Positions 30,164-62,499 of a stretch of DNA of 64,000 bases are shown here, piece by piece. Below the pieces are notes generated by a model. That model worked only from the letters and a program-made list of their open reading frames with translations. It was not told where the DNA came from and did no database searches. The DNA is from Apostichopus japonicus (Eukaryota > Echinodermata > Holothuroidea > Aspidochirotida > Stichopodidae): NCBI RefSeq assembly GCF_037975245.1, contig NC_092579.1, positions 14,058,678 to 14,122,677 of the forward strand, written 5' to 3'. Within the stretch, counting starts at the first letter, position 1, and the number at the start of each line of letters is the position of its first letter. A program made the translations under genes and the position numbers.

Positions 30164-30265
30164 TCGGGACTGTGACTGTGTGATCATCGTCGGGTGTGCA
30201 TCACCATTCTCCTCCAAAAGGAACAGATACTACACAAGATCTTAGCCAAAAGGCCGAAAAGCGTA
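30164..30265 (-). mobile_element. U2-snRNA-headed retroposon, copy 1 (lacks the 3' half)
   Basis: On the minus strand it reads CGCTTTTCGGCCTTTTGGCT, then AAGATCTTGTGTAGTATCTG, nearly the 5' end of U2 snRNA including the branch-site-pairing GTAGTA. It continues with the same non-U2 body as copies 2 and 3 (GATGCACACCCGACGATGAT, CAGTCCCGA) and then diverges. No poly-A tail or target duplication was seen, so this copy is rearranged or deleted at its 3' side. Confidence 0.75.
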
Positions 30266-34899: not shown

Positions 34900-37800
34900 C
34901 TGTTTACATCGATTTTTTGGCAGAAGTTATTCATCATACAATTTTGTAGAATGGACTGTTGTTTTTCGAAATATCAGAGAGTCTGTACATAACATCATTT
35001 TTCAATTTGACGGACTAGAAAGTGCATATTTATGTGGTTTTCTTCAAGTTATACGTCTTCGATTCTGCCACGGTTGACTGCCTTCCAACATGCTTAAGTA
35101 TACCAGCGCACAACTGCTTAGTATCCGTGGATCTTTGACCAAGCCTTTGCTCCGGCTACCGATCCAAGTCTACAACACTCTCAAAAGAAATGGAATAAGT
35201 GCTGTTAAGCCAACCAGCCGGGGCACAAAGGGGATTAAAAGGAGAAGAATACCTGTGAGACTGACAAACACACTGGCCAGACAAGTGATTAAACAACGCT
35301 CAGCCAACTATGATAACCTTATCAGCCTGGTCAGGGGTCAAGGTCATCCAGGGCCGGACAAAAACAACAACAACAACACAGATCAGCTGATTGGTTCCTT
35401 CTCTACTAACTCTATGCCATTGAAACTCTGCCTGATTAACCCTTGCTCCGTGTGCAACAAAGCTACAGAACTTTGTGATTTCACCATGGACAATGCTTTG
35501 GATGCATGTGTTATTACTGAGACATGGCTTAAAGGTGATGAGCGAGATGAGGTCATTCTGGCAGAGCTAAAGCCACCAGGTTATCATGTGAAGCATGTCC
35601 CCAGGAAAGGTAGAGGAGGGGGCATTGCTGTCATGCACAGAGACTCTATCTTATTGGTACCCAATACATCTAATAGTTACCAATCATTTGAGTGCCTGGA
35701 ATGTGTGATGCAGACTACTCCTCCTGTGCGCCTAGTGACCATCTACAGGCCACCACCATCAAAGACAAATGGTAACAGCTTTAGAACTTTTATGGAGGAA
35801 ATAACTGCTTATTTTGAACTTCTCGTCATATCCACCGGTATTCTCCTTGTCCTCGGAGACTTTAATCTACACATTGACAAGCCAGCAGATAAGGAGGGAG
35901 CAGAGTTCATTTCCTTAGTGGAGTCACTTGGAATGACTCAACATGTGACTGGGGCTACGCATCGTGGTGGGCACACGCTGGATTTGGTACTGACCAGGAA
36001 CATGGATAACATTGTGCCACGTGTTGCTGTTGAGGATAAATGTCTCTCTGATCATTACCCCGTGTTCTGTGTGCTACCCCTACACTGCCCTATGCCTAAA
36101 ACACAGGTAATCACCTACAGAAGGACAAAGGCCATTCAGCCTGACAGCTTCATCTGTGATATTAGTGCCTCATCTCTTGCTTCAATTTCTAGTGACACTC
36201 CAGCAGACAATGCCATCAGTCTGTATAACTCTGTCCTATCTTCCATCGTGGACAGTCATGCCCCAAAGAAGACCAGACGCGTTCCGGCGCGTTCACAGCC
36301 AGACTGGTATACGGCTCTGATAAGAGAGGCCAAGCAGCAGCGGAGGCAGTGTGAGCGGCTGTGGCGAAAGACCAGGCTTACTGTGCACAGAGATATGTTC
36401 ATCGAAGCTAAGCGAAAAGTTAACATCATGATAGCAGAAGCAAAGTCAAGTCATTTCCACAACATCATCTCTGAAAATAGCGGTGACTCCAAGAAGCTCT
36501 TTTCTGTTGTTAGCAATCTCCTGGGTAGGAAGGCAACACCAACATTACCCCCCGACAAGGATTCTAAGGACCTTGTGCATGAGTTTAGCACATTTTTCAT
36601 TGACAAGATCACCAGAATTAGAGCCAGTATAGTCAGTGAAGGGAAGTCAAAATCCTTCTCGTTGACAGTGCAGAAACCGCCATCTTGTGCACTAGATATG
36701 TGGGAGCCAGCTACAGAGGATGAACTGAAGCGGAGCATAATGGCCTCCCCGTCTAAGAGCTGTGGCCTTGATCCGCTGCCTACAAATCTCCTTAAGCAGT
36801 GTGTGACACCTCTCTTGCCAGTTATCAGCACTATTGTGAACAACTCCCTCATAACTGGCGATGTACCATCCGCTTTCAAGCTCGCCCATGTGACGCCACT
36901 CATCAAGAAACCCTCGCTGGATCCTACCGTTCTCTCAAATTATAGGCCAGTGTCAAACCTTCCATTTGTTTCAAAGATTCTAGAAAAAGTTGTGTCATCC
37001 CGTCTTACATCCTATCTTGAACACAATGGTCTACAGGAGACTCATCAATCTGCATATAGGAAACACCACAGCACCGAGACTGCCCTCGTGCGCATTCAGA
37101 ATGATGTGATGGTAGCTCTTGGAGGTCAGAAAGCGTGCCTGATGGTTCTGTTAGACCTTTCGGCCGCTTTTGATACGGTTGACCACCTCCAGCTTCTTAC
37201 TACACTCAGTGACCTTGGTGTTAAAAGTACCGCCTTAAAGTGGATGACATCATACCTCAGTGATCGCCAACAGATTGTGTGCCTGGGAAAGGATTCTTCT
37301 GACCCTCAGACGTTAGAATGTGGCGTGCCCCAGGGTTCGGTCCTGGGGCCTGTGCTCTTCACGGTATACACGTCTTCACTGGGTCAGCTACTTCGCTCAC
37401 AGGACATGGACTATCACTTCTATGCAGACGACTCGAGTCTCTATCTTATGTTCCATCCCAATGACATTACTATCACTGTGCACCGTCTAGAGAAGTGCAT
37501 AACCTCAGTTCGGCAATGGATGTCACACAAATGCCTGAAAATGAATGACTCAAAGACTGAGGTGCTTCTAATATCATCAAAGCATCTGGCCAGAAAGATA
37601 GAGTGTCCAAGCCTCATTATTGGTGACCATCAGGTGGAGCCTAGTGATGTGGCAAAGAGCATCGGTGTCATAATGGACAAGCATGCCTCTATGGAAGACC
37701 ATATAACATCTGTGTGTCGGTCTGCTCAGTACCATCTCTACAACATCGGAAGAATACGAAAATACCTCACCAGAGAAGCCACAGAGCAGTTAATCCATGC

Positions 37801-38483
37801 TTTCATAACATCTAAACTGGATTATTGCAATGCACTTTTATGTGGACTACCAGTTAAACAAATAAAACGACTGCAAAGGCTTCAAAACATAGCAGCAAGG
37901 ATCGTTACACTAACAAAAACATCTAGTCATATTACCCCAATATTGCATGAACTTCATTGGCTGCCAGTATCACAGCGGATTAGATTCAAAGTCCTTCTTC
38001 TTGTGTTCAAGTGCCAGAACAACATGGCACCTCCATACCTGCAAGATCTGATCCGTCTTTATCAGCCAACAAGAGCCCTACGTTCTTCTGGTCATAGTCG
38101 TCTGGAGGTTCCGATCACCAAGACAAACAGCTATGGGAACAGAGCGTTTTGCGTGGCTGGGCCACGCCTCTGGAACGAGCTGCCAGCTGAACTTAGAACT
38201 GTTTCTAGTCTAACGACCTTTAAATCAAAGCTGAAAACCTTCCTTTTTAGACAGCATTTTTGCAATATTTAAACTGTGTATTTTAAATTCCTTTCATGTG
38301 CAATACTCAAACGTGCATGCTTTTTATTTTTTCATACTCATTTATATTGTATTTAATTCTGCATTTTTTACTACATATTTTGTGTCATATTTTTATATTT
38401 CTTTATTTGCTGTTCATAGCGTTTTAGAGCACTTTTGTGGATTTTACGCTTTACAAAATAAATTATTATTATTATTATTATGT
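34900..38483 (+). mobile_element. CR1/L2-like LINE, apparently full-length coding copy
   Basis: Contains the ORF at 35090-38272, a 3' UTR of about 190 bases with a short stem (AGCGT 38418-38422, ACGCT 38446-38450), and an (ATT)n tail at about 38461-38480. The 5' boundary is uncertain; the start given is approximate. No target duplication could be identified. Confidence 0.75.
35090..38272 (+). CDS. LINE endonuclease/reverse transcriptase, intact 1060-residue ORF
   Basis: A non-LTR retrotransposon polyprotein that nicks target DNA and copies its RNA there. Residues 1-110 are basic with no recognised domain. Residues 111-330 are an APE-type endonuclease: N117 in LCLINPC, E144 in VITETWL, TIYRPP at 217-222, D257 and N259 in LGDFNLH, and S320-D321-H322. 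The reverse transcriptase covers about 570-850: SNYRPVSNL, D689 in LLDLSAAFDTVD, GVPQGSVLGP near 743, and YADD at 778-781. The C-terminal block ending near residue 1055 (LHELHWLPV, FKSKLKTFLF) is typical of the CR1/L2 group. The ORF has no stop or frameshift, all catalytic residues are present, and codon use is that of a normal gene, so the copy is young and could be active. No separate ORF1 was found upstream. Confidence 0.92.
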   Translation: MLKYTSAQLLSIRGSLTKPLLRLPIQVYNTLKRNGISAVKPTSRGTKGIKRRRIPVRLTNTLARQVIKQRSANYDNLISLVRGQGHPGPDKNNNNNTDQLIGSFSTNSMPLKLCLINPCSVCNKATELCDFTMDNALDACVITETWLKGDERDEVILAELKPPGYHVKHVPRKGRGGGIAVMHRDSILLVPNTSNSYQSFECLECVMQTTPPVRLVTIYRPPPSKTNGNSFRTFMEEITAYFELLVISTGILLVLGDFNLHIDKPADKEGAEFISLVESLGMTQHVTGATHRGGHTLDLVLTRNMDNIVPRVAVEDKCLSDHYPVFCVLPLHCPMPKTQVITYRRTKAIQPDSFICDISASSLASISSDTPADNAISLYNSVLSSIVDSHAPKKTRRVPARSQPDWYTALIREAKQQRRQCERLWRKTRLTVHRDMFIEAKRKVNIMIAEAKSSHFHNIISENSGDSKKLFSVVSNLLGRKATPTLPPDKDSKDLVHEFSTFFIDKITRIRASIVSEGKSKSFSLTVQKPPSCALDMWEPATEDELKRSIMASPSKSCGLDPLPTNLLKQCVTPLLPVISTIVNNSLITGDVPSAFKLAHVTPLIKKPSLDPTVLSNYRPVSNLPFVSKILEKVVSSRLTSYLEHNGLQETHQSAYRKHHSTETALVRIQNDVMVALGGQKACLMVLLDLSAAFDTVDHLQLLTTLSDLGVKSTALKWMTSYLSDRQQIVCLGKDSSDPQTLECGVPQGSVLGPVLFTVYTSSLGQLLRSQDMDYHFYADDSSLYLMFHPNDITITVHRLEKCITSVRQWMSHKCLKMNDSKTEVLLISSKHLARKIECPSLIIGDHQVEPSDVAKSIGVIMDKHASMEDHITSVCRSAQYHLYNIGRIRKYLTREATEQLIHAFITSKLDYCNALLCGLPVKQIKRLQRLQNIAARIVTLTKTSSHITPILHELHWLPVSQRIRFKVLLLVFKCQNNMAPPYLQDLIRLYQPTRALRSSGHSRLEVPITKTNSYGNRAFCVAGPRLWNELPAELRTVSSLTTFKSKLKTFLFRQHFCNI

Positions 38484-40984: not shown

Positions 40985-41227
40985 TTGCCTAGCGTACGGC
41001 ATCTTCTAATTGAAAGGCAAAGCTGTTCACGCGTCAAAGGATTTAATCCTTAAATTCACCAGGCAGGTAACATTCCACGAAAACGAATTTAGAACAATAA
41101 TATCAAAGGATTGTTTTGAAAGTCCTCGTCCAAGAAAGGGAGTGGGACAATAATCTTCTCGTATCGTTCCGTCTCCATTGCGTATAGCTTTAATAGCCTA
41201 CTACTGAAGCGAGTAACAATAACTATT

Positions 41228-41427
41228 CTCGCTTCTCAGCCTTTTAGCTAAGATCATGCGTAGTATCTGTTCCCTTTCGAGGGGAATTGTGATGCACACC
41301 CGACGATGATCACACAGCCACAGTCCCGATGCAAGGGGACTGGGGTTGAGAGCGGATCAGTCGTTCGGTAGTTTGATTTTCGTGCCCAGGTTCTTTCCTG
41401 GGCGACTTTTCCTTAACAAAAAAAAAC
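41228..41427 (+). mobile_element. U2-snRNA-headed retroposon, copy 2
   Basis: Starts TCGCTTCTCAGCCTTTTAGC, then TAAGATCATGCGTAGTATCT, closely matching the first ~45 bases of U2 snRNA. A shared non-U2 body follows (GATGCACACCCGACGATGAT, CAGTCCCGATGCAAGGGGAC, GGTTGAGAGCGGATCAGTCG, GTGCCCAGGTTCTTTCC) and an A-rich tail (41415-41426). ACTATT flanks both sides (41222-41227 and 41428-41433), a short target duplication. It is about 200 bp long. Confidence 0.85.
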
Positions 41428-41433
41428 ACTATT

Positions 41434-42530
41434 CAGGAACCTGTCGGCACCACCGAGAAATGTACATCTGTGCATATATCTCTCCAATTTCTGTTGTAGT
41501 GTGTATAGGCTATGTAGCCTATATAGGCTAAAAACTACCGTACCGTCCTCCAAACATTTCTCTTCACAGAGTTAGGTTCAGTTCTATAAATGAACTTCTC
41601 AATCGGAATAAGGAATAGGTTTGGAGGGTCCACCCACACCATGAGTTGGACGTTTGAAATCTTTCGACAGATGTTATTGCCCTAAACTGATCATATAGTT
41701 CAGTTGGATCCAAAGTTGTGTACCTTCCAGTTTTGTGTTAAACTACGTACAAAACTGTGGGGGTGGGGAAGGAGGGTGGGGAAAAGGGTGGGCAGGGTGG
41801 TGGGAACAAATAAAGGAAAAACCACTGAAGGTTGCTCTTTTATATCATTTGGGGTAATAACGCGGTATCCACAAGAAACGCGGCGGCTCTTTGATCAAAG
41901 GAGATGAATTGTCTATATGGACATATACAAGGGGAAGGGGAGGTCACCATCGAAGGGGCGAATAAAATATCTACGGTGCTTTGTAAATCTATCAAGGACA
42001 AATATTGTTAGAAATTCGAATGGAAGGAACCTGGCACTTTATATCAATGTTTAATTTACCCTTCCCAAAGATGTTTTGGAAATATTGAGAAGATGCAGTT
42101 AATACTGGGTATATACAGTTGTATAAAATGCTAAATCCCCCCCCCCCCCCCTTTCTATGTAGAGTTCCAGATGTTATTAAGAAAATCATCTTCGTACTTG
42201 TTAAGTTACAGTAGGATATATAAATATATGCAACGATTGAATTGGATCAAGTAAACACAGACCTGTATTACCAGCATTAATTAACACATCTCGTAATGAA
42301 TCGACATAGACATTACATTATACTGTGTTACATTGTTTAGAAAAGTATAGGGTATATAACCCAACAGGATATCATTTTATGCTTTTGATTGTTCCTCAAT
42401 TAGCAGATATGGCATCATGTAACATATGTTCATAAAAGTTATTGCTTGGGGTGTGCTTTTGTTGCTATGATACAGTAGTATAAATATTAGCACTTGATAT
42501 AGGCTATGGATTAAACAGTCTATACTGTTT
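41434..42530. other. No gene recognised
   Basis: Non-coding sequence with G-rich (41757-41800) and poly-C (42138-42151) tracts; no exon or complete repeat recognised. Confidence 0.45.
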
Positions 42531-43858: not shown

Positions 43859-43875
43859 TATTTTACACGTGTACA

Positions 43876-44069
43876 TCGCTTCTCGGACTTTTGGCTAAGA
43901 TCATGTGTAGTATCTGTTCCCTTTCGAGGTGAATAGTGATGCACACCTGATGAAGTTCACACAGTCACAGTCCCGATGCAAGGGGACTGGGGTTGAGAGC
44001 GGATCAGTCGTTGGTAGTTTGGTTTTCGTGCCCAGGTTCTTTCCAGGGCGACTTTTCCTTAAAAAAAAG
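43876..44069 (+). mobile_element. U2-snRNA-headed retroposon, copy 3 (complete, with 17-bp target duplication)
   Basis: Starts TCGCTTCTCGGACTTTTGGC, then TAAGATCATGTGTAGTATCT, matching U2 snRNA from its second base, and continues with the same body as copy 2. It ends in eight A's at 44061-44068. Flanks TATTTTACACGTGTACA (43859-43875) and TATTTTAGACGTGTACA (44070-44086) agree at 16 of 17, the mark of LINE-type retroposition. The element is about 194 bp. Confidence 0.92.
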
Positions 44070-44281
44070 TATTTTAGACGTGTACAAGTTCCTCGCAGGA
44101 TGGCAATGGAGGTCCAAAACGTAGGAATACCTGATTTATCCGGAACACTGCTACACCAAAACCTTCATTATCCGTAGGTATATCTAATATTCAATCATTC
44201 TTACAAAACACTGAATATGTATTGCCACAGTGATACTACTTCCAATACAGTGGGGGGGGGGGGGTGGAGGACTGGAGTTCA

Positions 44282-45410: not shown

Positions 45411-60445
<15,035 letters not shown>

Positions 60446-62183: not shown

Positions 62184-62499
62184 GTTCTAAGTATCTCTTT
62201 CGAGATCCGGCTTTAGGAATCACAAATGATTTTCGAGTTGGATAGCATCATGTTTGATCTCTAGAGTAGGGCAAAATATGTCACCAAAAACAGAACTAGT
62301 ATTGTTCGATATAGGTGACAAACGCCTACAGTGGAATTACGATCTTCCTTACCGGTTTCGAACCTCTGGACATACAATCAGCGTCCATAGCCTAGTGGTT
62401 AGGGTGTCCGCGTACAGAGCGGGAGGCCCGTGGTTCGAATCCCGGTGGAGGCTGAAAGTTTTTTCACTGTTCTTGATTTTCCAACTCATTACGATTTTC

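Follow-up and report, generated by a model that had tools for sequence, protein, structure and literature searches.

A Short Retroposon Resident in the U2 snRNA Genes of Apostichopus japonicus and Its Dispersed U2-Headed Copies

A short retroposon of Apostichopus japonicus, three copies of which lie in a stretch of 64,000 nucleotides (the window; C19:14058678-14122677), is resident in the U2 snRNA genes of its host, and the U2-derived "head" carried by its scattered copies is the 5' half of the target U2 gene, namely the 5' flank of the insertion site. It is probable that the element is a U2-targeted non-autonomous retroposon, which relies on the U2 promoter for co-transcription and on a U2-specific LINE of the Keno-like kind for its mobility, and which leaks genome-wide. 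An earlier sequence-only reading of the window had described a short retroposon with a U2 snRNA-derived head and likened it to SINEs with snRNA heads; the U2 part is, however, not a promoter-bearing SINE head but the flank of a target site.

Copies in the Window

One window copy, read on the + strand, is composed of a head corresponding to U2 nt 1-45 (43875..43919), a non-U2 body of about 141 nt (43920..44060), and an A8 run (44061-44068) followed by a G, which together (44061..44069) are read as the remnant of an A(n)-GTA 3' end. It is enclosed by a 5' target-site duplication TATTTTACACGTGTACA (43859..43875, +), the last A of which also serves as U2 nt 1, and a 3' duplication TATTTTAGACGTGTACA (44070..44086, +) of 17 bp with one mismatch against TATTTTACACGTGTACA, while the G after A8 is absent from the target, where a T stood. 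The head shows a single difference from host U2 (C13 to A) and reached 45.0 bits (E 9.2e-06) against the Rfam U2 model, slightly below the gathering score of 46. The body starts with a hairpin spanning the U2/body junction, which reads TTCCC..GGGAA in most copies, and ends with a 3' hairpin, GCCCAGG..CCTGGGC, followed by GACTTTTCCTT.

The second copy (41229..41426, +) is full length and 92% identical, has the tail AACAAAAAAAAA without GTA, and is flanked by a candidate 7-bp duplication, ACTATTC, recognised by eye at 41222-41228 and 41428-41434. The third (30164..30263, -), 89% identical over 100 nt, consists of the head and the first ~55 nt of the body, being 3'-truncated and devoid of an A-run. 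The junction TCTGTTC/CNTTT is common to all three. Thus, the U2 derivation of the head, the imperfect 17-bp duplication, and the single junction shared by three copies, all of which the sequence-only reading had put forward, were borne out. The density in the window must not be extrapolated to a copy number, since a random 60 kb of the genome held no young copy and only one or two old relics (L109), and the window may be rich in the element; an estimate from three copies in 64 kb was rejected for this reason. The window also contains two identical tRNA-like sequences (49690-49764 and 62380-62454; 47.2 bits against the Rfam tRNA model), which lie inside a longer duplicated stretch including their flanks and are probably part of a repeat.

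Host U2 Genes and Resident Copies

The U2 genes of the host are arranged in a 645-bp tandem array, located on C16 (~30.96-31.17 Mb), and four more lie on C15 among the 46 scored. The host U2 sequence (...GATCATGTGTAGTATCTGTTC) has an unusual U at position 30, giving AUCAU against AUCAA in the Rfam consensus, and the same unusual U is carried by the head of the element. The scored matches comprised 39 uninterrupted U2 genes, 22 U2 3' halves from which the 5' half is missing, and 6 U2 genes with the element; the C16 array, although its genes are essential, has thus been invaded heavily.

Six genes of this array house seven bodies in total. Single residents were located at C16:31131968, C16:31133411, C16:31134209, and C16:31058951, two tandem bodies share the gene at C16:31021288 (L082), and at C16:31006433 a resident follows a LINE within one U2 gene. 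The full-length resident form runs from U2 1-45 through the body, CCTTAGGGAATGG...TTCTTAAAAA, into GTATCTGTTC TTTTCAGC..., in which GTATCTGTTC is a second copy of U2 36-45 and constitutes a 10-bp target duplication. The 3' junction, AAAAA/GTATCTGTTC, is identical in 7/7 resident bodies. Four bodies are full length and begin after nt 45 with CCTTAGGG, CCCTCGGG, or CCCTAGGG, their junction-spanning hairpins having TTA, CTC, or CTA as loop variants, and the truncated ones exhibit three truncation points (starting with CTGACGATG, GGATCAG, and AGTCCCGATGC), two of the three being accompanied by a longer duplication, GTATCTGTTCTTTTCAGC. Several different 5' ends among the residents imply more than one insertion event, and one 3' junction combined with varied 5' ends is the outcome of repeated target-primed insertion at one nick.

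The regions upstream of the invaded genes are preserved: over 350 nt, the SINE-bearing U2 units showed 0-2 differences from the commonest intact unit in five readings covering four genes, a figure that counts readings in overlapping loci and not genes. In addition, the predicted fold of the resident unit, taken as U2 1-45 together with the body, is better than that of 200/200 shuffles (z -4.06); it includes stem-loop I of U2 as well as the hairpins at the junction and at the 3' end.

Dispersed Copies of the Family

At least 45 matches were obtained across the genome, which comprises 671.6 Mb in 35 contigs, from the best 40 scored of 1,661 first-look candidates, and 39 rows ranking below the window copy, among the best matches listed, had 93-95% identity over nearly the full length. 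Because sampling took the best matches to two queries, young and full-length copies are over-represented in it. Two rows occupying the same places as others (L041 and L042, equal to L004 and L007) and the window copy itself (L001) were removed. The head and junction were examined in 52 copies selected because their alignment spans both head and body, and matches starting past position 8 or ending before 180 were excluded from the head consensus. This consensus is identical to host U2 nt 2-45, the unusual AUCAU included, and nt 1 is kept in at least 21/52 copies. The location of the junction is constant in 52/52 of these copies, which show point changes there and mainly two forms of the loop, CCTTTCGAGGGG and CCTTAGGG/CCTTCGGG. 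A real multi-copy family had been proposed from the window, and agreement of its head with the host U2 genes had been named beforehand as the check; both expectations were confirmed. Being short, non-coding, and dispersed, with an A-rich end and target-site duplications, the family has these features of a classical SINE.

Seven dispersed loci are near-identical to the residents. Two of them, C9:6410317 and C7:23737974, match at 100% from U2 nt 1 through GTATCT past the A-run; six of the seven begin at U2 nt 1-2 and carry neither the U2 upstream region nor its promoter, and the seventh, on C6, has a disturbed 5' end.

The 3' ends of the dispersed copies carry a corresponding signature. The A-run, mostly 4-11 long where uninterrupted, is directly followed by GTA in 39/52 external tails (expected 1.9%, p about 4e-56), and T comes next, as in U2, in 25 of these 39 (p 1.5e-5). 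GTA is lacking from the remaining 13/52, as it is from the window copy at 41229, which stands outside the 52. The poly-A end ascribed to the body by the sequence-only reading is thus present as an A-run, but it is not a plain poly-A tail, because it is short and usually followed by GTA. Matches that did not reach consensus position 175 were excluded from the duplication and tail counts, together with three copies having no recognised tail (L033, the second L077, and the window copy at 41229), and the tail count further omits five internal U2 junctions (L073, L074, L076, L077, and L080).

A duplication could be resolved in 33/60 copies and none in the other 27, and among the resolved ones those of 7-8 bp may be due to chance. 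For 21 of these 33 copies, the target lacks the bases that directly follow the A-run, and 16 of the 21 non-target tails consist of G, GT, GTA, GTAT, or GTATC; such bases probably came with the RNA. The 3' GTA(TC) of the dispersed copies matches the 3' flank of the U2 insertion site.

Dispersed dimers were also encountered. In L076, L077, and L080, the whole of U2 36-45 lies between two bodies, and L076 is surrounded by a single 15-bp duplication, which indicates that both bodies were mobilised together, in keeping with an origin from a gene such as the tandem resident; the outer duplications of L077 and L080 are only 5 and 4 bp and are unconvincing. L074 contains an internal U2 36-50. In the diverged L073, the U2 head and the body are followed by the entire remaining 3' half of U2 and sequence beyond it; instead of a retrocopy, L073 may represent a U2 gene that was displaced long ago. 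Head-to-tail clusters of mostly full-headed copies exist outside U2 as well (L015, L018, L023, and L074), which seem to have arisen by nesting, a new copy having inserted where an older one ends in GTA.

Older relatives, 70-82% identical, are also present in the genome. Twenty-one old copies were studied, consisting of 20 fetched out of 39 matches besides the query, plus that of L002. Usable upstream sequence was available for 19/21, and a match to U2 1-34 at p<0.01 against shuffles was detected in 9 of these 19. Some old copies are arranged as U2 1-31, a segment of ~50 nt, U2 25-45, and the body, while others have no recognisable U2 start; the former layout looks like the product of repeated insertion within U2. 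The association of the element with U2 is therefore old, though perhaps not constant. Two comparisons of head with body, designed to reveal a head that follows U2 while the body evolves, went in the predicted direction without reaching significance, namely subfamily-specific columns (0/38 in the head vs 11/140 in the body, p 0.12) and mismatches among the old copies (p 0.14).

LINEs at the U2 Site

Several LINEs share the U2 array with the element, and L1/Tx1-type LINEs with open frames are found at its very site. LINE A is complete in L084, where ORF1 (496 aa, with a CCHC zinc knuckle) and ORF2 (1,150 aa) are both open. Its ORF2 contains an APE endonuclease, an RT, and a zf-RVT domain, and its best solved relatives are LINE-1 ORF2. 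The 3' 741 nt of LINE A have seven matches in the genome, 7/7 of which lie in the U2 array, and six open copies of its ORF2 are found in the array. Moreover, LINE A duplicates U2 36-45, up to 50, which are the same bases as those duplicated by the element. Residence in a tandem RNA gene at the site of a LINE, a feature of SIDEs, is observed here. LINE B has its 5' junction near U2 nt 30 and its 3' junction at nt 38. LINE C, 51% identical to LINE A, has three copies in the array with open ORF2 frames; a duplication could not be established for it, as the ends present in L046 derive from separate insertions. Another LINE family, 47% identical, has two array copies with open ORF2 (C16:31077838 and C16:31089140).

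The LINE with a shared 3' end, for which the sequence-only reading had advised looking, was not found among these: comparison of the body with full-length LINE A revealed no similarity beyond chance (15/100 shuffles scored equally well), and against the 3' ends of LINE A, B, and C, 57, 212, and 81 of 300 shuffles, respectively, were as good. The link between element and LINE rests on a common insertion site and not on a common tail. An A-rich end is nearly all that L1-group LINEs require, as with the LINE mobilising Alu, and for this reason the absence of shared sequence does not exclude them. LINE A was found only in U2 and the retroposon mostly outside it, which means that another enzyme may serve the dispersed insertions.

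Further LINEs were encountered away from the array. The window itself holds one at 35090-38272 (+), with an uninterrupted 1060-aa frame including an APE endonuclease and an RT, which we take to be of another kind, CR1/L2-like by its tail; it was rejected as a partner on account of its (ATT)n 3' end. LINE family D, 47% identical to LINE A (loci L111-L115 and L117-L119), was likewise rejected, as its 3' end looks different and it is located elsewhere, at C18:7753012, C15:7600751, C11:472228, C13:14829270, C8:3938313, and C9:24947201. At three of these six places, family D adjoins tRNA genes recognised by ARAGORN (four Gly on C15, Leu on C13, and two Ser on C18), and at the C8 and C9 places tandem repeats with tRNA-like text were noticed by eye; it is possibly a tRNA-array-targeting LINE. 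A more distant family of LINEs, which has mostly open frames and 37-38% identity to the ORF2 of LINE A, was encountered on C17, C11, C16, and C7, making up 20 of the best 40 scored places, 14 of them on C17.

Proposed Mechanism and Alternative Explanations

According to the mechanism we propose, the body would enter U2 by target-primed reverse transcription at one site, with its 3' junction at U2 nt 36-39 and its 5' junction usually after nt 45. The U2 promoter would subsequently drive transcription of the resident within a chimeric RNA, in which U2 1-45 and the body would be followed by A5 and then by GUAUCUG and the sequence after it. Reverse transcription of this chimeric RNA from A5-GUA would be carried out by a U2-specific and presumably Keno-like member of the L1/Tx1 group of LINEs, and would also take place at T-rich sites elsewhere. 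Copying of the RNA from A5-GUA at other sites would leave scattered copies that span U2 +1 to GTA(TC) and lack a promoter. For RNA re-entering U2, the head may align with U2 upstream of the nick, and the same junction would thereby be restored.

As far as tested, the element fits neither a Pol III SINE nor an internally deleted form of the tested LINEs (LINE A, and the 3' ends of LINE B and C). A conventional SINE with an internal Pol III promoter, in which the dispersed copies would be the sources and the residents occasional dead ends arising from the preference of the LINE for U2, is unlikely. The dispersed copies are indeed vastly more numerous than the residents, U2 nt 18-29 resemble an A box with two mismatches, and full-headed clusters such as L015 exist outside U2. 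However, A- and B-box matches in the consensus remained at the level of shuffles (987 and 995 of 1,000 were as good), and the U2 36-45 in the dimers, the U2 36-50 in L074, and the non-target GTATC are hard to derive from dispersed sources. An Sm site in the consensus was no better than in shuffles either.

The view of the element as a SIDE, a short internally deleted form of a U2-specific LINE, draws on the site and duplicated bases that it shares with LINE A and on its short, non-coding, and apparently co-transcribed nature, and the 47%-identical LINE in the array or other LINEs could still be the parent; we nevertheless judge it highly improbable, since no ends are held in common with LINE A or with the 3' ends of LINE B and C beyond the level of shuffles. 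Chimeric retrocopies, generated when the RT of a LINE switches template from the body RNA to U2 snRNA, have a precedent in the jumps to snRNAs described in the accessible parts of PMC13174262 (U6/L1) and PMC3414825 (R2 to snU12). This account is already largely refuted by the resident copies and hardly deserves belief, because the same junction occurs with a duplication in genomic U2 genes, the 3' bases are U2-like, and the junction is fixed in all 52 copies, albeit copies chosen for aligning across it. Transcription from the U2 promoter followed by LINE-driven leakage is the preferred reading.

Beyond this, we lean, with some reserve, towards a broader interpretation, in which the element would be the first SINE-size retroposon resident at a fixed snRNA-gene site and using a Pol II promoter. 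In this broader interpretation, the snRNA heads of dispersed SINEs, those of SINEU included, would be target flanks and not captured promoters, the head would act as a homology arm on re-entry into U2, and residents with different 5' junctions would be the successive master genes of genome-wide subfamilies. The promoters of snRNA genes lie upstream of the transcript, and it is therefore not obvious how an snRNA-headed SINE could be expressed at new places. If the interpretation is true, the U2 gene would be the promoter and the head its transcribed 5' half, which would answer this expression problem. It would also provide parasites of LINEs with a third route of expression, beside the Pol III promoters of SINEs and the rRNA co-transcription with ribozyme release of R2 SIDEs, and it predicts that resident bodies should be present in the U1/U2 genes of crocodilians harbouring SINEU.

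Relationship to Known Systems

SINEU, attributed to Kojima in 2015, reportedly bears U1 or U2 snRNA heads, and a LINE of the Tx1 group is said to have been proposed as its mobiliser; in SINEU-1, U2 pieces are reported to have been added repeatedly at the 5' end. The resemblance to SINEU that the sequence-only reading had pointed out is right in that the head comes from U2 snRNA. Both systems combine a U2 (or U1) head with a small composite body, and the repeated 5' addition ascribed to SINEU-1 resembles the old subfamily described above. They differ in that the body is resident in U2 genes here, which points to the origin of the head. The work on SINEU, the snRNA-headed SINEs of crocodilians, is cited in the accessible text of PMC7245038, PMC5753468, PMC8010984, and PMC13174262. 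The accessible part of PMC4640811 cites the SINEU paper for the distribution of Keno, and that paper may accordingly discuss a link between SINEU and Keno.

Keno possesses an APE-type endonuclease and, in the portion of PMC4640811 available, shares the U2 3' flank as its target with Utopia. LINE A resembles Keno in both respects, namely its APE-type endonuclease and its insertion at the U2 site of Keno and Utopia, while the retroposon itself differs from Keno in being non-coding and is unrelated in sequence to LINE A. Utopia has the same target site and likewise forms tandem insertions in U2 (accessible part of PMC4640811), but it employs a restriction-like endonuclease, in place of which LINE A has an APE.

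In the literature covered, consisting mostly of papers available without subscription and in the portions accessible, no description of a SINE residing in U2, or in any other RNA gene, was recognised except in the work on R2 SIDEs. According to the accessible text of PMC3414825, the R2 SIDEs of Drosophila rDNA were named SIDEs and not SINEs because Pol III is not used; as far as tested, and by the usage in that text, the present element would be neither a SINE, a name reserved there for Pol III-transcribed elements, nor a SIDE. It is similar to the R2 and R2/R1 hybrid SIDEs in being non-autonomous, site-specific in a tandem RNA gene, and presumably dependent on co-transcription, as these are portrayed there. 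In contrast, the same text presents R2 SIDEs as deletion derivatives of a LINE that keep the LINE ends and are released by a ribozyme, whereas no ends common to the element from Apostichopus japonicus and the tested LINEs were found, and the element keeps its host-derived 5' sequence and takes it along on insertion elsewhere.
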